Of a DNA stretch of 64,000 nt, positions 19,739 to 54,894 are shown one piece after another. The position numbers were made by a program, and so were the translations under genes. The stretch lies in contig CP136063.1 of assembly GCA_032622095.1 (NCBI GenBank), positions 30,568,987-30,632,986 of the forward strand. The letters are read 5' to 3'. A model generated the notes under the pieces. That model was not told the origin of the DNA. It saw only the letters and a program-made list of their open reading frames with translations, and searched no databases. The number at the start of each line of letters is the position of its first letter. The stretch's first letter is position 1. This DNA is from Siphonodentalium dalli. Taxonomy: Eukaryota > Mollusca > Scaphopoda > Gadilida > Siphonodentaliidae.

Positions 19739-19743
19739 AATAT

Positions 19744-19975
19744 TGTAGCGGTTTTGGCCTCTTGTTCCACGGAGATCATCCGGAAACCCACGGAGATGTA
19801 TCTACACCACTCGGAACGACTCACGTGACCCGACTCTTCCCGAAGGTGACGTCATCCGGGAATTCACTTCACTTCAACCACAGACTTCAAACCGACGACT
19901 TCGCTCCGCGCTCAAGACTTCTTTCATAGGTAATTTCATTAGATAACATCACTTATAAACCCTAATCATGTTATA
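19744..19975 (+). repeat. 5' LTR
   Basis: Starts TGTAGCGGTTTTGGCC and ends CTAATCATGTTATA. It matches the 3' LTR at all but two positions (CCACGGAG versus CCACCGAG; AAACCCTAA versus AAATCCTAA). ACTTATAAA near the end could serve as a TATA box or a weak polyadenylation signal. The 3' terminus lacks the usual CA. Confidence 0.92.
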
Positions 19976-19976
19976 T

Positions 19977-19995
19977 TGGCGACGAGGTGTTTCGA
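19977..19995 (+). promoter_or_regulatory. Primer-binding site, tRNA-Ser type
   Basis: TGGCGACGAGG follows the 5' LTR after one or two bases. It matches the reverse complement of a serine tRNA 3' end with CCA (a tRNA-Ser(GCT) ends CCTCGTCG plus CCA). Pairing is exact for 11 bases, then drifts (TGTTTCGAAC versus ATGGGATTCGAAC), with TTCGAAC retained. It primes minus-strand DNA synthesis. Confidence 0.75.
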
Positions 19996-22185: not shown

Positions 22186-24848
22186 ATGGCAACCAACGGA
22201 GTGGAAATAAATCGTTGCTCGCACGATGAGTTGTGTAAAATAGTAGGAATTTCTGGGGATTCAGCAATGAAGATAGTACTCCATAGGTCACAGAAAGGTG
22301 ATATCAAAAATAGCAAAGAATTGTCAGAGTTACTCACCCCCCCACCTATGTGCCAGAATTAAAGGGCCAATTGACTATGTAACAAGCAAGGGACAAGTAG
22401 CAACCCAGAAGGAGGAGAGCGCAATCAGGGAGTATCCGGAGTTCTCTCTTTCTGATGAGGACTTTCAGGAACCCAAGTATTCCAGCTCTCCAATCACTAC
22501 GAGAGGTAGACAAGAAAGAGAAAGGGAAGAGCATGTGGCCTCTTACAAAAGAGAAACAGATCATATGGCCTCTTTAAAAAGAGAAACACAGCAGAGAGAG
22601 ATAACGGAATATGAAAAGATAAGGCAACAGGAGTACGAAGATCAACGAAGGGAAGATCGAGAACAGGAAGAAAAAGACCTGCGACGTGGGACAATCAGCA
22701 AGGAGCAAGGAGATATCCAACCGAGGGACCAACAGGATAGTCGAGGAAAGGAAATGTCGAGAGTGCGGAAATCGTATGAAGAACAGCAAGGGGACTGGTA
22801 TGACCGCGTAGAAGAGGAAAGACACAAGTGGCAGGGGAAAATAGACAGAATTCGAGAGGATTTCAAACGAGAAATGTACCAAATAGAAAAGGAACTTTAA
22901 ACAAGCTAACAGTGAGGAACAACAGGTAAGAGGAAGTTTGAGGAATGTGCAAGAGGCTCTTAAAAGACAGAAGGAGCAGGTGGAGAGGGATGAACAGAAA
23001 AACAGAAAAGAGTGGGATGAAATATTAGGACAGATGGAGTTGAGGGAAAAAGAAATTTATTCCCTGAAGAAAGAGTTGCTCCAATCTACGGAAGAGAAAA
23101 CACAAGAATGTGAGGCCCTGAGAGAAGAAAAGAGGGCACAGGCTCGAAGCTATGAAGATAAGTTGAGGGACGAGAGAGAAGGGCGCAGGAAAGAGAAGCA
23201 AAGCTATGAACAAGCTAGGGTGGTACCCGAAGTACAAAGACACCCCACCCATTTTCCTCCACCAATCTGGCAACAACCACCATTCCCGTATGGAAACAAT
23301 CAGCAGTACACGTACCCGCCTAACCAGGTGGCGACCCCAGCGATGCAGATGCCACCAGCCACAATACCTCCAGTGACACCAGCGGTACAGGCAGTGGCCG
23401 ATCCAGGGAGACGGGAAAGGGAGCCGGAACGAAACGACAGAAGGGAGAACGAGGAACCAAGGAGATGGGGTGAGGACCGGGAGCAATATAGAGGTGAACG
23501 TAATGACCGGGGAAGATATGATAGAAGGGACAGGATAGGTGTTGAGAAAATACCATCTCGACTAAAGTTCGATGGAACCTCCATGTGGATGGAGTTTGAG
23601 AAGCGATTCGTCCATTTCGCCCAGCGCCAGAATTGGGATGAGGAAGAAAAGAAAGAGAAACTGGTCTGGTGTTTGGAAGGGAAGGCGGCCGAATTCTGCG
23701 CGATGGTCGATAGACAGGATGAAATGTCCTATCAGCAACTTCTGAGGGAACTCCGAAGTAGATATGAGGAACATGATCGTCCTGAGAAGGCCCAGACGGA
23801 TCTAGCAGTGGCCAAACAACATACAGATGAACCTCTAGAGGACTGGGCAGACAGGGTCCAAAAGCTGTCAATACAGGCCTTCAGTGACGCGCCGGGGGCA
23901 GTCCAGCAGAGACAGGCAGTACTAAAGTTCTGCCAAGGACTACTGGACAAGGAAACAGGGCAACATGTTGCCACTTCCGCCCAGCCAACCATTAAGATGG
24001 CAGTGGAAAAGGCGCAACTCTTCCAGCAGACCACGCAGGCAATATACGGGAAGAGACTGAAGAAAGAGGTAAAGGCCACATGGGTAGATTCGGATTCAGA
24101 TTCTGATGGGGCCCAAATCAGCCAAGTGTATAGGCATCGGGACAATAGGGGACGAGGGGATGGAAGAAGGGCTCCCGACTTGGGGGATGGAAGAAGGAAC
24201 AATTCCAGGTATGACCGGAATTGGAGGTCAGAGAGATCTGAGGGTCCCAACAATTCCAGGTATGACCGGAATTGGAGGTCGGAGAGTCCGAAGAACTCCG
24301 GGTATGACCGGAATTGGAGGTCGGAGAGTCCGAAGAAATCCGGGTATGACCGGAATTGGAGGTCGGAAAGTCCAAAGAGCTCAGGGTATGACCAAAATTC
24401 CCGATATAACCGGTCCCGAAAAACAGAAAATGCAAAGCCGACAAATGATTCCACTCCATGGGGCAAGAGTGAAACTACAAGAGATGGAGACACTGCCAAA
24501 AACAGGACGTCCACAAACCAATCATCGGATGTCAACTTAAGGGTGAGCTCACTAGAAAGCACCGTGGGAGGATTGGATACGTCGGTGGGTGAGATGGCAG
24601 CAAACATTAAGAAGCTGATGGGCCTAGTAGAGGAGAAGTCGAGATACAGGAATTATTCCAACTATGGGGACAGATCGAGAAGCCCTTCACCTAGGCGAAA
24701 TGGGGAAATGGTTTGCTACAAATGTCAAAAACCAGGCCACTTTCGCAATAACTGTCCCCAGAATCAACAACAGGAAAGATTCTCAAAGAAAGTATCATTC
24801 AATAAGAACGAGGAGTTAAACGAGAGCGGGTCGTCCATCGAGGCCTAG
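22186..24848 (+). pseudogene. gag: gag of the LTR element: coiled coil, Gag core, CCHC knuckle (two homopolymer frame breaks)
   Basis: The likely start is the ATG at 22186. A short N-terminal helical region is followed by a long charged coiled coil (about 22480-23220) rich in E, R, Q and K, then a Pro-rich stretch. The retrotransposon Gag core begins at IPSRLKFDG (about 23550) and runs to about 24040. Next comes a four-fold repeat of YDRNWRSESPK (about 24200-24400). One CCHC knuckle follows (CYKC...GHFRNNC; Cys593, Cys596, His601 and Cys606 counted from 22938). The reading frame changes at a C7 run (22337-22343) and at a T3 run (22896-22898). The protein-like text continues smoothly across both, so these look like single-base gains. 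Role: capsid assembly and RNA binding. The last segment, 22938-24848, is uninterrupted. Confidence 0.82.
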
Positions 24849-24872
24849 AAACGACCCGAATCAAAGAAGGCC
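24815..24872 (+). promoter_or_regulatory. Candidate -1 ribosomal frameshift signal between gag and pol
   Basis: G_TTA_AAC at 24815-24821 lies exactly in the gag frame (codons 627-628 of the 22938 frame). GUUAAAC is a known -1 slippery heptamer, used by equine arteritis virus. After a 5-nt spacer, CGGGTCGT (24827-24834) pairs perfectly with ACGACCCG (24851-24858) around a 16-nt loop holding the gag stop. Loop bases GGCCT (24842-24846) can also pair with AGGCC (24868-24872), which would make a pseudoknot. pol lies in the -1 frame, open back through this site. Confidence 0.8.
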
Positions 24873-27800
24873 CAGCCAAAGAGAAAAAGCCTTCAGAACG
24901 TGGAAGCTCCACTATAAGTAGAGAGGGTAATGCACAACCAAGTTGTAGAACTTATAGCCTGGAGGACGAAGAGTTCAATGCATCGATATTCAATGTTGAC
25001 TCTAACCAAACAGGTAGTGAGTTCAAAGGAGTTGTGAGCAAGCCCGGGAACGAGGTAGGTACATCAAAACGCCCTAGCCCAATGGTGAAGCTGGACGATG
25101 CATTGTTACCCGATGCTCAGCCGGCTTACCAGGTGGATAGGGACACGAGTGGGCCTATCTTGATATCTGCCGACGAAAGAAATAAGTGGAGTAGACCAGA
25201 ACCCAGGAAGGAACCGATAGGTGATACGAGGGACAAAATACCCACGGCTGGGAAAGAGGTAAAGCAAGTCGCAGAAAACTCGTGGAAGGGTGACGACGAA
25301 ATCCTATCGGAAGAGAAATCCGAATGGATCATGCCAGCAAACAGCATGAGTGGACCCCCTAGTCAAAGAAAGGCTGAGATCGAAGAGATAGGGAACTCAG
25401 AGGATCACGATGAAACGGATCTGGTAGTTTCCCCGGAATTGGGAATAGCTCAGCCTAGCGAACCATCTCCGGGTACGCTAAACAACGAAGAAGAAACCGT
25501 TGAATTGACGATCCAACAAGTTAGGGGAACCATGCTTTACATCCCAGTAGAGATCAATGGGAGCAGATTGAATGCCGTTGTTGATAGTGGTGCAGAAGTA
25601 ACCATCGTATCGGATAAGGCTTTCAAGAGGCTGGAGAAACAGCCTGACATCCAGAAAAAGGCGAAGATGCATACGGCAGGCAGGAATTTATGCATGAATG
25701 CGTGGATCACCCAGCCGACCAACTTGCTAATAGGGGGAAAAATATACAGCCACCCCTTATATGTTGCTCCCGTGGCCGATGATATGCTGTTGGGGTTAGA
25801 TTTCATGAAAAAACATTCTGCCCATATAGACCTAGACCGGGATATTATCGAATTGGGAGAAATCACTGTCAAGATGGAACGCTTAGGGGATGCTGCCCAT
25901 GATGGACAAATCCAAGTACGAGTTTCAAAGGCGACCGTGGTACCTCCAGGACAGGTGTGCTTGTGCCAGGGTGTCATGGCCGAAAATCTCAAACCATACA
26001 TCCTGGAAGGAACGGAGCATCCTAGTATCATCATTCCGAGAACTGTTCACAGTGCCGGGAAAACCCCAGTGATCTGTCTCGTCAACACTTCAGAGAGATA
26101 TATTAAATTCAAGCGAGGGCAAGTTATCGCCGCAGCATCTGAAGTGGAAGTATTGCGCTGTGACGGCGGCGCCAGTGTATCAGCAGTGCGAGTCGGAACA
26201 GAACCGTACAAAATCCCAGAACATCTGATGGATTTATATAATCGTTCAGCGGAAAATTTAGAGGCAAGCCAGCAGGACGCTCTGGCTCAACTCATAAGTG
26301 AGTACGCTGATGTTTTCGCAATAGACGAATATGATCTGGGGAACTTCACGGCAATGGAACACACTATAGATACCGGAGATGCTCTGCCCATTAAAATGAA
26401 CCTCCGCCGAACACCCGTGGCTTTTGTCAATGAAGAAAAACAGCTGTTGGACAAAATGCTGAGAGCCGGCGTGATTGAACCCAGCACTTCAGAATGGGCA
26501 GCTGCACCAGTACTGATCCGGAAACGGGATGGCAGTATTCGCTGGTGCCTCGACTACCGCGGTCTGAAGTCGGTGACTAAAAAAGATGTCCGGCCCATTC
26601 CCCTGTTCTCAGAATGTGTGGATTTGTTAAGCCAGAAACAGCATTTTAGCCACCTGGATGGAAATTCTGCGTATTGGCAGATTCCCATTCGAGAAGAACA
26701 CCGCCACAAGACTGCATTCCTAACAAAATACGGGACCTTCCATCACGTCCAACTCGCTTTCGGTCTTTGTAACGCGCCAAGTTGCTATTCCAGGGCCATG
26801 AGCCTTGTGCTCCAGGGGTTAAACTGGAATATAGCCTTGGCATTCTTAGACGACGTTCTGGTGATGGCGTCAGATTTTTCTAGCCACGTCGTCAACCTTA
26901 AGAGGGTCCTGGAAAGATTCCGGAAATACCAACTCCGCCTAAAACCCCAAAAGTGTGGATTGTTTCAAAGAAAAACAGAATTCTTGGGGCGAACGATAGA
27001 CGGCCAGGGCATGACGATGACAGATGCCTCCTGCAAGGTCATCGAGGAGTGGCCGACCCCTCGAAATAGCAAGGACGTAGAAAGATTTTTGGGATTGGCA
27101 GGATACCACAGAATGTTCGTAAAGAACTTCTCGAAGCTCGCCGCCCCCTACACCAGTTCACGGGGAAGAATCCAAAATTTGAATGGGGTTACGAGCAAGA
27201 AGAGGCTTTCCTTGCCTTAAGAGAAGCCCTTAGGACACCCCCGGTTCTTGCTCTACCGACAATAGAGGACCCATTCATACTGGATACGGATGCCTCGGAC
27301 GGGGCGATAGGCGCAGAGCTAATCCAAGTCCAGGAAGGGGTGGAGAAGGTCATTGTGTATGGAAGCATATCTTTGAGTCGGGAGCAAAAGAACTATTGCA
27401 CGACTCGTAAAGAATTACTGGCCGTGGTATTTTTCGCCAGGACGTTCCGGCACTATTTGCTGGGGCGACCTTTTGTGGTGCGAACTGACCACGCCAGCCT
27501 GACATGGCTCCTACGCTTCAAGCACCCCCAAGGCCAGATTGCACGATGGCTGGAAGAACTGAGCCAATACCAGATGACTATTAAGCATCGCCCAGGAGCG
27601 CGTCATCAACATGCAGACGCAATATCACGCCTGGTGGATGAAGATCCTTGTCATTGTTTCAAGGCAGGTGTGATATTAGAAGATTTGCCCTGTGGTGGGT
27701 GCAAATACTGCCAAAGGGCAGAAGAGAAATGGGGAGCATTCATCGACTCGGTTGATGACGTGATCCCCTTGGCTCAAGTCAGGGCACAGTCCGTAAACCT

Positions 27801-28779
27801 GGAGCACCAAGTTATGGATGTGACGTGTCCCATGCTGTGGCCATGGGATCCAGGGGGGTCGAGAATGAAAGAACACCGGACGGAAATAAGGGAACTTACC
27901 TTAATTCCCGACTGGGGTTCGGAACTAAGATCCCACCCTACCGTGACCTGTGTTGCGAAAGTGACAAATGGGGAGGAAATCTCCCACCAAGTTGGGGTAG
28001 GTGTTGCGAGAGCAACAATAGGGGAAGTTCAAGGGAACCCCGAATCCGGGTTAATAAAGGTAAGTGCGACAGACTTAGGAAAAGTCCATTTTATCGGTTC
28101 CATTGACATACCCCATATGGAAATTATTACGGTGAGTCAGGTCGTGGCAGAGGCATGCCCTCTTCAACTGTATACGGCTGACGACCTGAAAGAAGCACAA
28201 GGCGAGGACGTGGATTTACACAAAATTATAGAGTGGGTACAACAAAAGAAGGATCCTGAAGAGGGAGAATTATTTAGATGCAGTCCTTGGGTGAAATATC
28301 TGAGGATTAATAAAGATCGCTTGAAGATGAGAGAGGACTCTAGGGCAACCATTCCCTATCGCCATTCTCCATTAAGGAAATCTTCAATGCGCCACTCACC
28401 ATATCCGAGACCTCAGGGGTCAGGGATGGCCCAGCCTTATGAACAGCCCCTTCGAGAACGTCAACGTTCGGTCGCACCCTTTCGATCACATCAGGGCAAC
28501 ATGTCATTGCGGAGATCAAGGTCTTCTCCTTCTCGTAGGAATCCGTCCAGTCTCGACTCGCGAGATATTGGGATTCCTTCAGCTCAGTCTTCTCGTAGGA
28601 ATCCGTCCAGTCTCGACTCGCGAGACATTGGGATTCCCCCGTCTCAGTCTTCCCAGATAGACCCGTCCCGTCTTGACTCCCGGGACAGTGGGATCCATCT
28701 ATCACCTTTCATCTTGCAGAATCCTCCCGTCTCGAATCTCGAGGCTCTGAGGCTTCACCATTATATTCTTCTATTCTGA
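24822..28779 (+). pseudogene. pol: pol of the LTR element: protease, RT, RNase H, no integrase (one frame break)
   Basis: Entered by -1 shift from gag. A disordered acidic region precedes the aspartic protease (DSGA at codons 184-187 of the frame from 25034; LLGLDF about 75 residues later). RT follows with LDG (Asp542) and FLDD (604-607), plus GLCNAP and the connection block. RNase H keeps its acidic residues: DTDASDG (about 27283-27300), KELLAV, RTDHASL and HADAISR (about 27614-27630). A CGGCKYC motif and the usual pre-integrase text (CPLQLYTADDL; near the end, KYLRINKDRL at about 28300) follow, as in other Gypsy pols. At about 28330 the expected HHCC finger and DDE core are absent, and S/R-rich repeats begin. 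The frame breaks at a C5 run (27144-27148) and again at 28726-28728. Confidence 0.88.
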
Positions 28780-28945
28780 AGAATCCTCCCCGTCTCGAAT
28801 CTCGAGGCTCTGAGGTTGCACCATTAAATTCTTCCATTCTGAGGAATTCGCCCCATCTCGATTCTCGAGATTCTGAGGGCCCATCATCATATTGTTCTGT
28901 TCTGGAGACCCTACCCCGTCTCGAATCCCGAGATTCTGAGGTTTC
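28530..28945 (+). repeat. 60-bp (20-residue) tandem repeats joining pol to the TatD frame
   Basis: About seven units, the first at about 28531, 28591 and 28651. All encode variants of NPSSLDSRDIGIPSAQS or NPPRLESRGSE. The series starts in the pol frame and finishes in the TatD frame. The change falls where one copy reads CCTCCCGT (28724-28730) while its neighbour reads CCTCCCCGT. Continuity of the repeats across the break indicates one original reading frame. Confidence 0.85.
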
Positions 28946-31007
28946 CAGTTTTAACGTCATGCCATTGACTGGGGGAGCTACGACAGAGATCAATACCTCT
29001 GTTAACTCTACAGATTCTCGGGTAATTCTTCCCATGGAGTTACTGACTGAGGAAGTCAATTCTCTTCCTTCTTTGGAGACCTCTCTTGTTGAACCAGGAG
29101 AGAAGCAGGTTAGCAAGAAAGTTCCATCTCGTAACGACACCAAGTGTCCTCTGTGCGGTCAACCGTCTAAGAAGATGGAACGGCATTGCATGGTCCATCA
29201 TCTCCCTCAAACAGTCTGGGAATTTAGGACAGCAGATCAACCCCAACCGGAAGATTGGGAATTTCTTTTGCTCTTCCTTGCTAAACGTCTTAACTGTAGT
29301 CTCGCGGAGTTGATTGGAAAGTGTAATAACAGCTCCGCAAGGATGCCGTCTTCTAGCATCACACCCGATTGTTTGACCATGATGGCAGAATTTCAGTCTT
29401 TTCTTCACACACAGTATGATTGGCCAGTGGTGGACAAGTTTTCTCTCCATCCCATTAACTCTGTGGCCGTGCTTCTGCACTGGAGACCTCTTTGCAATTT
29501 GCTACTCCAAATTCCCCCGGAGGGACAGAAGAGTTTTCGTAATCTTTGCCCAGGTCGCCTTTGCAATTTTGTAACCAGATCTGGGAAAGCTCGACTGAAC
29601 CAGCAGCATCTGACCGCTGAATTGAACCTGACTAATGTAAAGAAGTCCGATGGAGTACCGATATCCACGAAGAAGAAACCGGTTTATCCGAATCTCCACA
29701 TCCAGATATCAGGCGAGTCTTTTCCACCACCCCATAAACTCCAGATAAGATGCGGACCTCCCCGAACTGTCAGCTGTTCCCCTCCAACTGCAGATCCTGC
29801 GATTTCAACGCTCCCCCCACCTTCCGAGGTTAAGATCAGCCACTCAACAGGTTCTGACAATACTGTTCCACCTGTCCAGCAACCGCCAATCTACACTCCA
29901 GATGCTGTTTCTACAGTTCTGGATCCGGGTGTACTTACTGTGGATGCTGTACTTACAGTTCCGGTTCTCTCGGAATCTCCCACTGGGTCAATGGACACGA
30001 CCCTGGTTCTGGGAAGTGACCCTCCCCTTACACCGGAGGTCAGCGACTCTGCCAACGCGGATAGTATTTTTGGGAGCCCATCAGGCCAGTGGCCTCCCCT
30101 CAGTGTTCCGCAGAATAGGATCAGCCGAATCACTCTTCCTATTCTTCCCCCACCTCGGGATTTTGGGCTAGCTAGAATGGCTGTAGATTCACACTTCCAT
30201 TTGGATCGCTTGCATGATCGTCTTAGAGGCTATCCAAAATTTGACATAGACGACATGCTCCAATATCGACCTTCGCCATTCCCGACGACTCCTATCAACC
30301 TTATAGGTGGAGTGATGATCTTCTGTGATCCATCCACTTACCCGGTTGACATCCGTGTTGATACCCCGTTTAAGACGGCCGTTGGTCTCCATCCGAAGAA
30401 AGCCGGTCTTTATTCATCTTACCATAAACGTCTCGATGAATTGTTTGCGCATCCCGGTACAGTCGCAATTGGCGAAATTGGACTGGACCGGACTGTGGCA
30501 GCTAGCTACTGGGAGCAGCAAGATTCTGTCTTTAGGGATATCGTCAAGTCTGCAGTACTATATCAGAAGCCCATAGTTCTTCATTTAAGAGGTCTTGCGA
30601 AATTCCCTGCTGATGTCTATGCCCGAGGACACAAGATTGTCTCCGACGTCTGTCCTCCTAACCAACTAATTCATCTTCACTGCTTCAATGCTGGCGTGGA
30701 GGAGTTCCAACAGTGGAGCAACTCCTTTCCCCATTGCTACTTTGGTTTTACGGCTGCTGTGACATTCTTCAACGTATCTCAGAAAAGGGCGTTGCAAGCC
30801 ATACCTTCTTCCCGTCTTTTGTTGGAAACAGACTCTCCCTACTTTGGTCAACCTTGGGGAGCCGAAATCAGTAGCCCTGCCTATATTGGAAATGTTGCGC
30901 GAGTCGTATCAGACATCCGGAACGAAAGTCTTCAGGACATCTTGCAAGCAACGATTCTGAATACTAGCCGGTTTTACAGAACACCTGTTCCGGGGAACTT
31001 CCTTTAA
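28710..31007 (+). CDS. C2H2-like finger plus TatD-family metal-dependent hydrolase, carried by the LTR element
   Basis: The frame is open from 28710; the first ATG is at 28959, giving 682 codons. Residues counted from that ATG: a zinc finger CPLCG...ERHCMVHH (about 64-83); an uncharacterised region with several Trp/Leu/Cys blocks (to about 210); a Pro/Ser/Thr-rich linker; then a full TatD domain from about Met407. Its signatures are DSHFHLD (His412, His414), GLHP (His478), GEIGLD (Glu506), LHLRG (His542), HLHCF (His574) and ETDSP (Asp625). These are all the metal ligands and catalytic residues expected of TatD nucleases, and the domain length (about 270) is normal. Known TatD proteins are metal-dependent DNases, including 3'-5' exonucleases and TATDN1-3 in animals. 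It sits downstream of RNase H on the same strand, probably as the C-terminal part of the polyprotein, in the place of integrase. A separate protein from an internal start is possible. Function within the element is unknown. Confidence 0.85.
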   Translation, partial: HLAESSRLESRGSEASPLYSSILKNPPRLESRGSEVAPLNSSILRNSPHLDSRDSEGPSSYCSVLETLPRLESRDSEVSSFNVMPLTGGATTEINTSVNSTDSRVILPMELLTEEVNSLPSLETSLVEPGEKQVSKKVPSRNDTKCPLCGQPSKKMERHCMVHHLPQTVWEFRTADQPQPEDWEFLLLFLAKRLNCSLAELIGKCNNSSARMPSSSITPDCLTMMAEFQSFLHTQYDWPVVDKFSLHPINSVAVLLHWRPLCNLLLQIPPEGQKSFRNLCPGRLCNFVTRSGKARLNQQHLTAELNLTNVKKSDGVPISTKKKPVYPNLHIQISGESFPPPHKLQIRCGPPRTVSCSPPTADPAISTLPPPSEVKISHSTGSDNTVPPVQQPPIYTPDAVSTVLDPGVLTVDAVLTVPVLSESPTGSMDTTLVLGSDPPLTPEVSDSANADSIFGSPSGQWPPLSVPQNRISRITLPILPPPRDFGLARMAVDSHFHLDRLHDRLRGYPKFDIDDMLQYRPSPFPTTPINLIGGVMIFCDPSTYPVDIRVDTPFKTAVGLHPKKAGLYSSYHKRLDELFAHPGTVAIGEIGLDRTVAASYWEQQDSVFRDIVKSAVLYQKPIVLHLRGLAKFPADVYARGHKIVSDVCPPNQLIHLHCFNAGVEEFQQWSNSFPHCYFGFTAAVTFFNVSQKRALQAIPSSRLLLETDSPYFGQPWGAEISSPAYIGNVARVVSDIRNESLQDILQATILNTSRFYRTPVPGNFL

Positions 31008-32250
31008 TATTCTCTCCCTCAGTCGGGACCAACCGCCACATAGGCGTTTCTTTGTGTATTATATTGTAATGTTTCAACTAGCCGGACCGATGAAGTAATC
31101 ATCATTCCTGTTTTTCATGGTAGAATTATCATCTTCCCCTTTAGTAGAATTCCTGTATATATTCTGGAACTTCTCTTGAACTAGACGGACCCATCATGAT
31201 TCCTGTTTTAGATAACGTTGGAAACAAATTAATTTGTCAAATGTTTGAGTATTCTTCCATGTATTTCCCCGTAGGTTCACTAAACAAATCTGAGGTGACT
31301 GAATCAAATTGGATAGTATTGTTGGGTGTATGGAAGCAATCACGAGTATCTGTATTGTCTATTTAGTCAGGAAGTAATAATGGGATTCTATATTCATAAG
31401 TTAACATGGTTTAATATAAAGTATTAGATATCACGTAAGTTTGTCAAGTTGAAACCAAACAGACCCCCTATTCTATTTAACACAGAGGTTATTAATCACA
31501 TTAATTCATAAGTAAGCATAATAAATGGTAATTTCCACCTGTCAGCCAAAGTGCGTCTTTCTTGTTCAGTGTCCAGTTCTGTTTCCTCTGTCTTTGGAGA
31601 TACAGGGAGTCCTTTCTACATCCATATTTCGGCCAAGCCCACTGGACATCTTTCTTCACCACACCGCTGTCTTTGTGCTCCATCATGCGGTTGATTGTAA
31701 TCACCAGGGACCGTTGAATTGATGTCCGGAAACTGTCTTTATGCTATTTTTGGCACAGAGCGGCACCTTCGAAATTGTTAATGTCACGCTGTTAAACATG
31801 TTGTCGTTAGTTTTCATCAATCAGAATATGAAATATATATATATTTAGCAGCACAAACACACAGCCGAACACTGAATATATAATTATCAGGATCGGAAAG
31901 TTGACGAAATTGACGAGTCATTTTGACGAAGTTTAGCAACAAAATCCACATTTCCGTCTCCCCGTGTGGTTCGACACTACAACGTCACCAATGAAACAAA
32001 AACAGGACATTGTATTCATGTTTCACATAGTTTATTCTATGCATTAAAGTCACAATCAATGGTTAATCATATTCAACATGTCAGCTGAAATACGTGTTAT
32101 CTTGTTCGCAGTCAGTTCTGTTCGAAAATAACAAGACAGTCAATGACTGTGGGGTCGCTCACCAGACTGCAAAGACTGATAAGACTGGGACTCTGGAGAC
32201 CACAACAGTCAGAACTTTTCATAATCACTTTAAAAGAAGTAGATATCTAA
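31008..32250. other. Noncoding start of the element's 3' region
   Basis: No convincing gene. Two short overlapping frames at 31501-31722 lie on opposite strands. The minus one begins MITINRMMEHKDSGVVKKD and could be an exon relic but is unrecognised. The segment 32035-32160 carries GTTTATTCTATGCATTAAAG, which reads as a possible polyadenylation region on the minus strand. Confidence 0.35.
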
Positions 32251-32815
32251 AGAGTTAAATCTAAAACAACAAATTTGGAGTTATGTCCCTGGCCCCGCCC
32301 ACATTTGACCCAGTGACCTGATTTGAACAAATCTGAACCCCAGTCACCCAAGGATCCTTCATACCAAATATGAACCCATATAGCCTGATGGTATTTGAGA
32401 AGAAGTCACTTTAAGAATACTATGGAGGGAAAGAGTTATGGCCCTGGCTTCGCAACTATTTCAAGTAAACTCATTTGAACAAATCTGAATGTGAGTCACC
32501 TAGGGAACATTCACACCAAATATGAAACCATTCGGTCTTATTGTTCTGAAGATGTTTAAAAGAATTACTATGGTGGGAAAGAGTTATGGCCCTGGCTTCG
32601 CAACTATTTGACCCAGTGACCGCATTTGAACAAATCTGAATGAGAATCACCTAGGGAACATCCACACCAAATATGAACCCATTTGGTATTATGGTTCCAG
32701 AGGAGAAGATGTTCAAATAATTGTTGTCGGACGGATGGACGGACAGACGATAGACGGACGAGGAGTGATGACTATAGCTCCGCCGGAGCACAGGTAGGGT
32801 GGCTGTTTGATAATT
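32250..32815. repeat. Dispersed modular repeat nested in the LTR element, copy 1
   Basis: Three modules of about 150 bp start TTATGTCCCTGGC or TTATGGCCCTGGCTTCGC. Each contains TTGAACAAATCTGAA, CACCAAATATGAACC and a GAAAGAG junction. They are followed by (GACGGAC)n and GGAGTGATGACTATAGCTCC. Copy 2 lies at 35270-35822. Further single modules occur at 32900-33170. Confidence 0.75.
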
Positions 32816-33299
32816 AAATCTCTTATCTCCGCCCCTATTTGAACAAACGTGAATCCCCATCTATGAGATCCATTCATTTGGTAATTTCAGACATTAGATT
32901 TTAAGAGTTGAACTGAACTGATTTTCCTAAAATGACCCCAAATCTGAAAAAATCTAAACCCAGTCACCGAAGGACCATCCATACCAAACATAATCTAAAT
33001 AGTCCAGATGGTTCTTGAGAAGAAATTGTTTTAAGAATTACTATGGAAGGAAAGAGTTATGGCCCTGACTTCTCACATATTTGACCTGATGAACTCATTT
33101 GAACAAATCTGAATGTGAGTCACCTGGGGAACATCCACACCTAAATATATAAACCCATTTGGTCTTTAATATGTATCTGGAGAAGAAAACAATGACAGAT
33201 GGATGGATGGGAGAACAGTCTGACATAGAGACTGACAAATTCAATCCAATATACCCCCCAAGTTTTCTTTGCAAAATCAGGGTATAATGAGTTCAACTG

Positions 33300-34800
33300 G
33301 ATACTGGTGGTTAAGAACATAATATTCGAACAGACAAGCGTGAACATAGTGTCTGACATTTGCAGAATGAGGTCCCCAAAGGGTGAATTTAATGACACAA
33401 TCCTGCAATGCGGGCTAGCATCACCAAATTCACCCTCTGGGGACCTCATTCTGTGTATGCCTCAACTGCTATGGGAGACATAGCATTAGATTGAAGTTCT
33501 CCAGTTAAAGTTGGTGATGTGCACCCATTGGGCACCTCAATTATGCATTTTATATTCACAAATTAGGGGATATAGAAACTAAACAGAAGGGCTAAAGTAA
33601 GTAAAAATGTCAATTTAAGTGCCTATATACTTCCCAGAAGATGAGGCCTAAGCAGAATGAGGACCCTGGCTAGTGTATTTGGTGATGCTAGACTGCTGTG
33701 CAGGGTAGCATAACTAAATTCACCCTCTGGGGACCTCATTCTGCAAATGCCAGATAGAAGACAAATTTAATCCAATATATACCCCCCCCCCCCCATTTTT
33801 CTTTGAATATTAGTCGTATGATTTCATCTGGATAAGTGGTGATTAAAACAATAATATGAAATGGCCAAACCTGAATTTAGTATGTCTGACATATACAGAA
33901 TTAGGTCCCAAAAATGTGGATTTAATGACAATATTCTGTAAGGCAGGCTAGCATCACCAAATTCATCCTCAATCTGATTAGGCCTCAATGGCCAATAAAA
34001 CCAAGGAACAGATTGAAGTCCTACAGTTGAAGTTGGTGATACACACCCATTGAGCACCTCAATTATGCATTTTATCTTCTGCAAATTAGGGGGACATTGA
34101 AACTGAACAGGTGGAAAAAGTGACTAAATCAAACTGTCAATTTGATACTTAGGATACTTCCAAGAAGATGAGGACTAAGCAGAATTAGGTCCCTGGCAGG
34201 TGTATGGTGTATTTGGTGATGCTAGCATGCTGTATGGAATAGCAACACTAAATTCACCATCTGGGGACCTCACTATGTAAATGTCAGACACACTATTTCC
34301 AGACTTGAAGAAATCAAAGCCATTCACAGTATCATTGAATGTCAGTCATTAAATTGCTACAGATATGTTTAGATTAGAATAATACATGTCATCTGGCCAG
34401 TTTATATAATTAACATATATGGCAAACTTTGTATTAAATTGAGAGGTGATATGGCTTGGAAGGGATGTTGGTTGATGGCAGGGTTGGCCCTGGGCCATAT
34501 GGGAGGGGGTGGGTGGGGGGAGGGTGGAATGTTTCCATAATTTCATTAAAGAGTAAAGTTTCATAACTCTGCAGATGTTATATATAATGGTGTCACTTTT
34601 TTTCAAATTTTAAAAAAAGTTTTTAAAAAAATTGTCCCAGAAGATGAGGCCTAAGCAGAATAAGGTAATTGAGGTGTATTTGGTGATGCTAGCCTGTTGT
34701 ATGGGGTAGCAACACTAAATTCACCATCTGGGGACTTCATTCTGCAAATGTCAGACACACTATGTCCAGGCTTGGAGAAATGAACAATGGACTATTCCTT
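33300..34800. repeat. Three foldback copies of the GAGGTCCCCAGAGGGTGAA family
   Basis: GCAGAATGAGGTCCCCA or its complement GGGGACCTCATTCTGC appears at about 33366, 33440, 33735, 33900, 34255 and 34725. Each is joined to GTGAATTTAGTGATGCTAGC-type text. Some copies contain the extra segment AGTTGGTGATGTGCACCC...CAATTATGCATTTTAT. A C-run (33782-33793) separates two of them. The copies sit inside the modular repeat, showing nested insertion. Confidence 0.7.
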
Positions 34801-35269
34801 GTAGACTCTGGTAGTTGTTTAGCTAATGTCATGTCTTGTAATGACAGATGATAAACTGGTCTGAAGCAAGCAGTATTCAGCAAGAGGATCGGGCGACCAC
34901 ACTATGATAAATTGGCTTTTTCAATAATACAGGCTAGAGTGTCCTCTTAAAAATTAATAGTGCATAGCAAAGGGGTGTGAATTATAAAGGGCCATAACTC
35001 TGTTAAAATATATCGGATCAAACCCATATTTTAACTTGATCTGTATATAAGTGTCAAAAATTCATATACCAAATTTGGTGTTGATCAGATGAAAAATGTT
35101 TGAGTAATCCTGTCTTGGATGAATTCTATATCAAAACAAGAGTGGAAGGGGTTAAATAAACAATACCAAAATCCATACAGATGAAGAACATGCTAAGAAA
35201 AATCTAGGTAAGAAATATGAGGCTGTGATGTGTCCTAAACAAAAATTAAAGGTCAAAATGCAAAAATTA
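34801..35269. other. No gene seen
   Basis: Noncoding. Around 34985-35130 there is a diverged GGGCCATAACTCTGTTAAAA module of the dispersed repeat families. Confidence 0.4.
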
Positions 35270-35822
35270 AATTTTTTGTTTTTAAAGTTATGTCCCTGGC
35301 TCTGCCCCTATTTGACCCAGTGACCCCATTTGAACAAATCTGAACCCCAGTCACCCAAGGTCCCTCAGTACCAAATATAAGCTAATTCGGCCCAACATTT
35401 TTGTAGAAGAAGTCATTGTAAGAATTACTATGAGTTATGGCCCTGGTTTCTCAACTAATTGACCGGGTGACTTCATTTGAACAAATCTGAACACCAGTCA
35501 CCAAAGGACCCTCCATACCAAATATTAGCTAAATCGGCACAATGGTTATGGACAAGAAGTTGTTGTAAGAATTACTGTGGAGGAATAGAATTATGGCCCT
35601 GGTTTCGCAACTATTTGACCCAGTGACCTCATTTGAACAAATCTGAATGAGAGTCACCTAGGGAACATCCACACCAAATATGAACCAATTTGGTATGATG
35701 GTTTCAGAGGAGAAGATGTTTTTTTAAAAAGTTTACGGACAGACGGACAGACGGACGGACGGACGGACGAGGAGTGATGACTATAGCTCCACCGGAGACT
35801 TTGTCTCAGGTGAGCTAATAAA
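35270..35822. repeat. Dispersed modular repeat nested in the LTR element, copy 2
   Basis: Same module order as 32250-32815, ending in GACGGACAGACGGACGGAC (about 35740-35772) and GGAGTGATGACTATAGCTCC, then TCAGGTGAGC. About 3 kb separates the two copies. Confidence 0.75.
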
Positions 35823-36966: not shown

Positions 36967-37198
36967 TGTAGCGGTTTTGGCCTCTTGTTCCACCGAGATC
37001 ATCCGGAAACCCACGGAGATGTATCTACACCACTCGGAACGACTCACGTGACCCGACTCTTCCCGAAGGTGACGTCATCCGGGAATTCACTTCACTTCAA
37101 CCACAGACTTCAAACCGACGACTTCGCTCCGCGCTCAAGACTTCTTTCATAGGTAATTTCATTAGATAACATCACTTATAAATCCTAATCATGTTATA
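36967..37198 (+). repeat. 3' LTR
   Basis: 232 bp with the same ends as the 5' LTR. The sequence following it, ATATTCTGG, shares ATAT (or AATAT when the last A is counted as flank) with the bases before the 5' LTR. Confidence 0.92.
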
Positions 37199-37832
37199 AT
37201 ATTCTGGGGACTATTTTCTGCAAATGCATTCATCAACTATTTACTAACTTAAAAAAAGAGGGGGGGGGGGGGGCGTTAGAATGGTGTACGTATACCAAGC
37301 ATTTACAATTACATGTACATACCACTAGCGGTTTGTGAGCGATACTGGTAATTATTCATAACGGTATATACAGATATTGTGCGGCATATTACAAATGTAT
37401 ATGGCACAACATAGGGACAACTGAAATGAAAATGCGACTTATATACTTTCTGAAATATTTCAAACATGAAGTCCTGGTCGTTAGTCAGAACTATTCAATC
37501 TGTTTTGGAGGGAAAATATATGTGTGAAAAGTTACTAAACATAACATTGGTATTTGTATTTTCGCGGTTCGACATACATGTACCCGGTATACGTTTCCGT
37601 ATTTTTGGAGAGAGACAGCTCAAGCAGTGAGTGCAACTCGCTCGGTTAAACTCTGGCTAGAGATGTTCCCCTTTTTACCTGTTTTAACGCACCAACCAAA
37701 CTGCGTTTTAGCAGCATCATATTGATACTTCCGGGAATGATTAAGATGTTCCATCTTTGGTGATAAATATTTTATTTAATGTACCGGGTATTGTTCAAGG
37801 TATTCCGCATTGCATAAGAGATTTATTAACCG
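37199..37832. other. No gene seen
   Basis: Noncoding flank. G-run of about 12 at 37261-37273. Confidence 0.4.
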
Positions 37833-51463: not shown

Positions 51464-52410
51464 TCATTGAAAATATTTTTCTGAAAATGTATATGGATTC
51501 GTATATATCATTGATTTTTTAGATTTAATGGAATTTTTATTGGTAGGGAATGTGACAGTCTTCGATGAAGGTTTGATATTTAGCTTCATCCTGAGAACAG
51601 TTGACGTCTTGATGAATGAGCCAGAACTACCGGTGTCAACCAGTGCATTCAAATCATTTGGATCTTCCTCTATTGCAGATGACCTCCACATTTGTGTTCA
51701 TAACTGATCTGGCTCATCCACACATTTTCTGCAGTACGATAATGTGGACGTTGTTGCGGTCCATATTGATAACGTTTTTTGTGCATCTGAATTTCGACGT
51801 TTGTTCTGCGTTTTCAGCATGTGCATTAGTGTTTAGATACGATATATTTAGTGATATATTTCTGAGTCCGTTGCTCGTCATGTGATGAAATAGATAGTGC
51901 GTTGATAGGAGCTTGCAAGTTGTATGTAGCATTGTTCTTTTCTGCCAACTCAAGCGATTTTGCAGTTCGCTTTGCAGTATCAAAAGTCCAATCACATTTC
52001 TCTAGCAACCGTTGTTGAATGTTGACAGATGACAACCCAGCGATAAATGCATCTAACATACTTTGTTGCTTGTTTGCTGTTAATGCATCAAATTGGCAGA
52101 CACGGGCCAATGCTGACAGTTCATTGAAATATTGCTGAATATCCTCATTCGGTTTCTCTTTTCTGCTCGACAGAAGATACCTTGCAGCAATTTTGTTCGA
52201 ACATTGGTTGTAGATTTGTGACAAGCTGTCCATAGCTGAGGTATATGTTGTGTACTGGGCAATGTAATGGTACGCTTTCTTTCCAACATTCTTTCACTGT
52301 AGCCATACTTTTTGTGCATCATTGTCGTTGACGTCGGCGCCTTGCTCTGCTAAATAGCCTTCGAAAATGCATTCCAATATTCCCAGGTGAGCGTAGCCTC
52401 GGGGTCATCG
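51464..52410 (-). pseudogene. Ty3/Gypsy gag-protease relic, minus strand
   Basis: Read on the minus strand. The gag part (about 52400-51830) contains FEGYLAEQGADVNDND, a TGA, then YHYIAQYTTYTSAMDSLSQI, and the core AARYLLSSRKEKPNEDIQQY with FNELSALARVC. A blurred zinc-knuckle region lies at about 51800-51720. The protease part (51691-51464) has LNALVDTGSSGSFIK, the D-T-G motif of retropepsins. At least one stop and frame changes break it, and RT is absent. This is a different, older lineage from the 19.7-37.2-kb element, whose protease has DSGA. Confidence 0.75.
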
Positions 52411-54360: not shown

Positions 54361-54422
54361 ATAAAATCTACATGTAATCATTAACCAGTACTACAATGTA
54401 CTACAAATTATGTACACTCTAT

Positions 54423-54783
54423 TTGCCAACAAGCAGTCGCAGACGGCGGTATCCCCCGCCAAAATGTGCAGTCAGGGAAATGCATTCTCAATAATATTTG
54501 CATTCTCTGCCGAAATGTGCAATTGGGGATCAATCTTGGCGTTTACAATGAAAACCCTAGCATATCTGAGTGTACCAATATCATTCTTCAAGAACTACAG
54601 AAATACGTCCCAGCCACGACAAACAACAGAGTATACCCCATCATTTGCTTCGGGGATCAGATGTCTGCAGAAAGGACAATCTCTGTGAAGGAAGACAGAA
54701 TATATGAAAGAAATACAATTGATCGTATTGATGGGATAGAGCCTGGGATACAGGAATTCCATCTACAAATGTTACTTATGCAG
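54423..54783 (+). pseudogene. Exon with a DUF6589-like motif
   Basis: The frame from about 54423 to the donor ATGCAG|GTACGC reads CILCRNVQLGINLGVYNE, then YPIICFGDQMSAERTISVKE, RIDGIEPGIQEFHLQMLLMQ. The sequence PxxxxGDQ...R...RxxGxxPxxxxFHxxxxLL is the hallmark I associate with DUF6589, found in many animal proteins linked to mobile elements. The donor and the following 60 bases are duplicated in tandem (66-bp period, second copy from about 54837). It may belong with the islands at 52695-53180. Assignment is from memory of the motif and is tentative. Confidence 0.45.
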
Positions 54784-54894
54784 GTACGCCTTGTGCAAAT
54801 TAGTGCATGTTGTACAGATTTGAATGATTGACGGATGTTACTTATGCAGGTACGCCTTTGTGCAAATTAGTGCATGTTGTACCAGATTCGAATG

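Follow-up and report, generated by a model that had tools for sequence, protein, structure and literature searches.

Does a TatD-family nuclease occupy the place of the integrase in a mobile retrotransposon? This question was raised by a 64,000-nucleotide stretch of the scaphopod Siphonodentalium dalli (C3:30568987-30632986, hereafter the window), in which a Ty3/Gypsy long terminal repeat (LTR) retrotransposon carries a TatD domain at the expected position of its integrase. The original prediction was that a captured nuclease had replaced the integrase and that the element moved with integrase supplied in trans. We searched the whole genome (2.23 Gb, nine contigs). We are highly confident that the window element is a young, internally deleted copy of a Ty3/Gypsy family and that, in no fewer than 11 divergent families of this genome, the integrase is followed by a third gene ending in TatD, open reading frame 3 (ORF3); four of these families also carry a Tpt1/KptA domain. 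This confidence applies to anatomy and origin only.

The window element displays the hallmarks of Ty3/Gypsy elements, namely LTRs, a putative primer-binding site, a polypurine tract and a short target duplication (Table 1). As had been noticed from the outset, its LTRs differ at only 2 of 230 aligned positions. Four frames were compared with Pfam and gave matches to RVT_1 (2e-23), RNase H (3.8e-32), TatD_DNase (1.4e-38), an aspartyl protease and gag, the PNMA and Retrotrans_gag scores lying just below curated cut-offs. No integrase family was found in these four frames at E<=10, in agreement with the absence of integrase already noticed in this copy. The seven TatD metal-site residues that had been named are all present, their numbers shifted by 94 throughout relative to the earlier ones (H506, H508, H572, E600, H636, H668 and D719 in the 776-aa frame 28677-31007), and the C2H2-like finger announced before TatD is a CCHH finger with the spacing C-x2-C-x9-H-x3-H. 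The reverse transcriptase (RT) and RNase H had also been correctly recognized, but their frame is broken near 27.15 kb; with a further break near 28.7 kb, pol and TatD do not form the single protein that had been assumed.

The origin of the pol-TatD joint became clear with a 160-nt probe centred on window positions 28336/28337, for which 40 matches were scored out of 46 candidates. The window copy alone matched end to end (1/40), and the other 39 matches end at the junction, covering either probe positions 1-80 (pol side) or 79-160 (ORF3 side). Thirty-two of these half-probe matches form 16 same-strand pairs lying 3.8-4.4 kb apart, and 7 are single. In the copies at C9:161.7 Mb and C2:209.9 Mb, pol shares respectively 97.4 and 97.6% identity with the window as far as position 28336 and then runs into integrase; the C9 copy matches H2C2 (2e-15) and rve (1.5e-12) there and keeps a single open pol frame across the 1200 aa examined. 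Reading throughout the gap in two copies revealed an H2C2/DDE integrase and a PHD finger, followed by a spacer and by the first part of ORF3, a gene of its own. All five copies read in this region have a PHD finger at the integrase tail (1.3e-09 in L034), a spacer of 1.4-1.7 kb and then a separate gene ending in TatD. The window copy carries a private deletion of ~3.95 kb that removed the integrase, the PHD finger, the spacer and the start of ORF3, and it is because of this deletion that TatD is found where integrase was expected.

The family itself has been mobile recently, as had been proposed. A search with its LTR gave 40 scored matches out of 60 candidates, many of them paired around TatD genes. 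In the 11 pairs examined, the two LTRs show no difference in 7, one in 2 and two in 2, and the 4-bp target duplication is perfect in 9 and conserved at 3 of 4 bases in 2 (flanks read by eye), which fits insertion mediated by an integrase. The pol gene has the order protease-RT-RNase H-integrase-PHD and is followed by the separate ORF3; in L038, RT, RNase H, H2C2 and rve were found in one frame. Dispersed copies had been anticipated, and the TatD gene does lie within many copies with the same LTRs, but the pol-TatD junction is not common to them. The search for sister elements with integrase, suggested along with the prediction, was successful, the same LTRs being found with H2C2 and DDE integrase and the PHD finger.

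These observations allow us to weigh other explanations of the window copy. A copy devoid of integrase and flanked by young LTRs could suggest that TatD replaced the integrase in the family, which would move with integrase in trans; yet just one of the 40 scored matches contains the junction, the ~4-kb segment is present in 16 copies and the integrase frames are intact in the two copies read. Such a replacement is extremely improbable, and the junction probe rules it out as a family property; since sister copies have their own H2C2 and DDE integrase, supply in trans is not needed to explain the family. One would also wonder whether the TatD frame belongs to a normal host gene that happens to lie between LTRs. 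The same genome does contain a separate TatD group (L001, L003, L004 and L006), but the TatD genes of the window family are located within paired LTRs with target duplications and those of other families are preceded by integrase sequence in 12 cases out of 12, which leaves this explanation a vanishingly small probability. Two findings had been named in advance as adverse to the original prediction: the junction does occur only once, whereas the TatD frame did not turn out to be a normal host gene devoid of LTRs. An assembly error that fused two parts of the element would speak against a true deletion, and the abundance of family copies would make it easier; we consider it very unlikely, as the LTR of this copy shares 90-98% identity with the scored LTR matches outside it and the copy has 3.7 kb of extra sequence and its own target duplication. 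Finally, a variant compatible with a deleted copy is that the deletion preceded insertion, for instance through template switching during reverse transcription, and that the shortened element moved once with the enzymes of its sisters. Both LTRs, the 4-bp duplication and the 2-nt junction overlap are intact, and a second in-frame deletion copy is known (L032 as compared with L156). On the other hand, a deletion after insertion would look identical and no second copy has the window junction, so that we regard this order of events as possible, leaning slightly against it.

Is the same gene present outside the window family? The genome search with PF01026 gave 150 scored matches out of 529 candidates, many of them in open frames of 700-1490 aa. 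For 12 TatD genes from other families, integrase sequence was found just upstream in all 12 (in L050 and L051, the later part of the integrase only within the piece read), and a PHD finger precedes TatD in 10 of them, as judged by similarity to the tail of L031, whose own finger is matched by Pfam at 1.5e-10. With the window family and L156, which combines integrase-PHD with a 950-aa ORF3, 11 families display integrase sequence followed by an ORF3 with a C-terminal TatD. The element TatD adopts the TIM-barrel fold, and none of the 11 families has lost any of the seven metal-site residues (HxH, H, E, H, H and D). ORF3 is arranged as an N-terminal helical domain, low-complexity repeats, the CCHH finger with the HWR region, and the TatD nuclease. 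The helical domain was seen in five families; modelled alone, it reached a predicted local distance difference test score (pLDDT) of 91.6, and the model had no match in the PDB at E<=0.001, which is no proof of a new fold. The strict finger pattern was matched in 5 of the 11 ORF3 proteins and the HWR pattern in 9; by eye, several pieces begin past the finger, the L031 finger is spaced differently, and the HWR pattern does not cover L009 (FHWRT) and L160 (IHYRP). Pfam found no envelope family in the ORF3 frames of the window, L031 or L156. L032 was considered as a natural integrase-TatD fusion and rejected, being without 1.7 kb present in its sister L156.

ORF3 of four families (L031, L156, L012 and L164) contains in addition a Tpt1/KptA domain (PF01885). 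The matches of L031 (7.6e-48) and L156 (1.6e-44) extend over the whole domain; L012 matches the domain start (5.2e-08), with a family match of 2.2e-30 over positions 4-177 at C2:122127438, and L164 is matched at 7.4e-40 at C5:238347124, in a 1346-aa frame like that of the L164 TatD. The best solved relative of the element Tpt1 is tRNA 2'-phosphotransferase 1 (7yw3, 2.7e-30). PMC6333775 gives the Tpt1/KptA tetrad as Arg-His-Arg-Arg, and the LRH, K-x-RF and GMR motifs are present in L031 and L156, the fourth Arg being placed by eye. Of the 83 Tpt1 matches in the genome, some of them fragments of a single domain, 37 are followed at 0-6 kb by a TatD match in the same orientation; with just 150 of the 529 TatD candidates placed, this number is a minimum. 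Reversed controls gave 0 TatD upstream and 0 on the opposite strand. No genome-wide Tpt1 match falls in the window-family copies found by the LTR search. A cluster of several mostly partial Tpt1 matches was observed at C6:168.57-168.85 Mb, with no placed TatD nearby.

In both families tested, the TatD domain shows purifying selection, with ratios of nonsynonymous to synonymous differences (pN/pS) of 0.10 for 11 window-family copies and 0.05 for 4 L012-family copies, each summed over non-independent pairs. Integrase and TatD distances are correlated (Mantel r 0.877, 0/10000; 0.847, 0/10000, without the L009 outgroup), and the pairs window-L161, L012-L164, L031-L156 and L159-L163 are found in both trees. 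In each of the 55 family pairs, TatD shows a lower identity than integrase (mean 0.37 versus 0.60). The simplest reading is that ORF3 was gained long ago and then descended together with pol.

Several points nevertheless weigh against our overall picture of these elements and their third gene. To the non-independence of the pN/pS pairs should be added a Mantel r that drops to 0.62 (12/10000) without L009, L161 and L163, and several weakly supported inner branches in the 11-family TatD tree. All 11 families were picked by the presence of TatD and thus say nothing on the number of related elements without it. No PHD finger was seen in L048 and L049, two L009-family pieces, and 46 of the 83 Tpt1 matches are without a placed TatD, including 16 of the best 40. 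Outside this genome, we saw no contig that combines pol with ORF3: among protein records, none of the best 120 of 220 pol relatives, retrieved with the L032 frame, contains TatD in the same protein, and a Tpt1-TatD query gave one protein, matched over 31% of the query length, with TatD but no Tpt1 according to Pfam.

The ORF3 protein query gave 80 matching proteins, from 7999 scored candidates sharing most words. Named animal records among them are from Saccostrea, Pinctada, Dreissena, Strongylocentrotus, Diadema, Patiria and Procambarus; these relatives from other species are known from protein records. In an alignment of 50 of the 80, at least 90% of rows retain the TatD residues, all four residues of the CCHH finger and the tryptophan of HWR. 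In a midpoint-rooted tree of 93 TatD domains, built once 14 near-duplicate rows and domains shorter than ~215 residues had been dropped, 75 rows group together (98/87), including every element TatD in the tree, the bivalve records and both sea urchins. Outside this group are P0068, ten TatD proteins with a radical-SAM domain, and L001, L003, L004 and L006 with P0059 (Patiria), P0064 (Procambarus) and P0066. The last record joins two CCHC knuckles to TatD, that is, a gag-like finger outside the main ORF3 clade. The second TatD group of the genome, of ~300 aa, occurs in near-identical multi-kb copies: L002 (C3:80.5 Mb) and L003 (C7:145.8 Mb), on different chromosomes, are 99.7% identical over 3.7 kb, and L004 and L005, far apart on C1, 98.9% over 3.4 kb. 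ORF3-type or pol sequence was also seen in P0015, P0027, P0032 and P0100, labelled as proteins of Sedimenticola metagenome-assembled genomes; our guess is that these records probably reflect host contamination of symbiont bins. TatD searches of viral contigs gave 4 IMG/VR loci (26-29% identity) and those of genome contigs 546 loci, the best 80 all with prokaryote titles; all were ordinary TatD, with flanks not checked for pol.

How does this lineage compare with known systems? Ty3/Gypsy elements are usually described as having gag-pol and at most an env-like gene. The closest known systems are Ty3/Gypsy (Metaviridae) elements with a PHD finger in pol, such as P0083 (Ostrea edulis), P0108 and P0154 (Pinctada imbricata), in which Pfam likewise finds RT and RNase H together with the H2C2 and DDE integrase and PHD (listed pol relatives being 43-61% identical over 35-52% of the query). 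None of the 120 listed relatives has TatD in the pol protein itself, and in the present families a third gene with TatD comes after pol. Animal TATDN2/TatD nucleases (PF01026) share the fold and the seven metal-site residues, P0059 being named a putative deoxyribonuclease TATDN2 in its source, whereas the element TatD resides on a retroelement, is joined to an N-terminal domain of its own, a CCHH finger and an HWR region, and is separate from P0059 in the tree. The Tpt1 domain is that of Tpt1/KptA/TRPT1 proteins but is encoded within a transposon gene, where it precedes TatD; one of the 120 listed pol relatives, P0085, also has Tpt1, inside pol between integrase and PHD. A parallel can be drawn with host-captured retroviral accessory enzymes such as dUTPase: here too a host-type nucleic-acid enzyme has been added, but the enzymes differ and the gene is separate and follows integrase. 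In open-licence PubMed Central full texts, judged by title and start of abstract, no description was found of a Ty3/Gypsy element with a TatD third gene, with or without Tpt1; such a lineage is likely, although not proven, to be undescribed so far.

What could ORF3 do for the element? Its putative role is most likely the processing of RNA or complementary DNA (cDNA) ends. The element would make ORF3 as an accessory enzyme. Nucleic acid would be bound through its finger and HWR region, and its TatD would act on RNA:DNA hybrids and on the ends of RNA or cDNA, trimming or nicking them. Its Tpt1, where present, would use nicotinamide adenine dinucleotide (NAD) to act on the 2'-phosphates of RNA or to cap 5'-phosphate ends, and integration would be left to the normal integrase. 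According to PMC6582358, TRPT1 ADP-ribosylates 5'-phosphate ends of RNA and DNA, which suggests a processing of RNA, cDNA or hybrid ends by ORF3. That this role lies mainly in the element's own RNA and cDNA processing has slightly less than an even chance. A more tentative proposal, somewhat doubtful in our eyes, is that ORF3 works in counter-defence, breaking down or modifying small RNAs of the host or other intermediates of silencing, and does not serve reverse transcription. Supporting this idea, ORF3 is a separate accessory gene, 4 of the 11 families add a second RNA-end enzyme, and TatD remains below integrase in conservation in all 55 pairs with a constant active site. Such faster change fits a host substrate without proving it, but it equally fits relaxed constraint in a non-core gene.

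The extra ~3.7 kb of the window copy (Table 1) is probably one or more nested insertions. Elsewhere in the window, a 265-aa frame (1167-1964, + strand) matches Phage_integrase, a tyrosine recombinase family (5.9e-07), and is probably a piece of a tyrosine-recombinase transposon; a 148-aa frame (54385-54831, + strand) matches DUF6589 at 7.3e-06, just below the curated cut-off; and a 155-aa frame (51826-52293, - strand) appears retrotransposon gag-like by eye, with no Pfam match at E<=0.01.

Table 1. Features of the deleted Ty3/Gypsy copy, in window positions.
Feature	Position	Strand	Basis
Target-site duplication ATAT, left	19740..19743		flanking sequence
5' LTR, 232 nt, TGTAGC...TTATA	19744..19975	+	LTR comparison; 40 scored genome matches
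Putative primer-binding site TGGCGACGAGGTG	19977..19989	+	position and letters only
gag-like frame with CCHC knuckle	22887..24848	+	zf-CCHC 4.3e-06, PNMA 3e-05, Retrotrans_gag 1.5e-04
pol, first part: aspartyl protease and RT, FLDD motif ~26.84 kb	24806..27220	+	Pfam, frames
pol, second part: RNase H and linker, other frame after frameshift ~27.15 kb	27070..28336	+	Pfam, frames
Deletion junction, ~3.95 kb gone, 2-nt overlap GG	28336..28337	+	comparison with sister copies
ORF3 remainder, in frame with pol, then frameshifted in repeats ~28.7 kb	28337..31007	+	frames, sister copies
ORF3 CCHH finger, then HWR motif (LLHWR at 29472)	29145..29207	+	motif reading
TatD nuclease domain, seven metal-site residues present	30177..31004	+	Pfam, alignment
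Extra sequence ~3.7 kb with repeats	32135..35815		not in copy at C2:209.9 Mb
Polypurine tract AAAGTGGGGGAA	36955..36966	+	position and letters only
3' LTR	36967..37198	+	LTR comparison
Target-site duplication ATAT, right	37199..37202		flanking sequence

A first lesson from this locus is a warning that a single deleted copy can pass for a new architecture. Our findings also suggest that transposon genes account for some of the TatD gene models of animal genomes. According to PMC6582358, it is still elusive what role TRPT1 genes, which are widely conserved, play beyond plants and fungi, and the ORF3 families offer a natural experiment on the roles of TatD and TRPT1 in animals. It is an unlikely possibility that a long-lived Ty3/Gypsy lineage has maintained a TatD and NAD-using Tpt1 toolkit acting on RNA. 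Host small RNAs or hybrids would then be trimmed and RNA ends ADP-ribosylated or dephosphorylated, so that the element would escape silencing or shield its own RNA, and this would represent a transposon-encoded system of nucleic-acid ADP-ribosylation.

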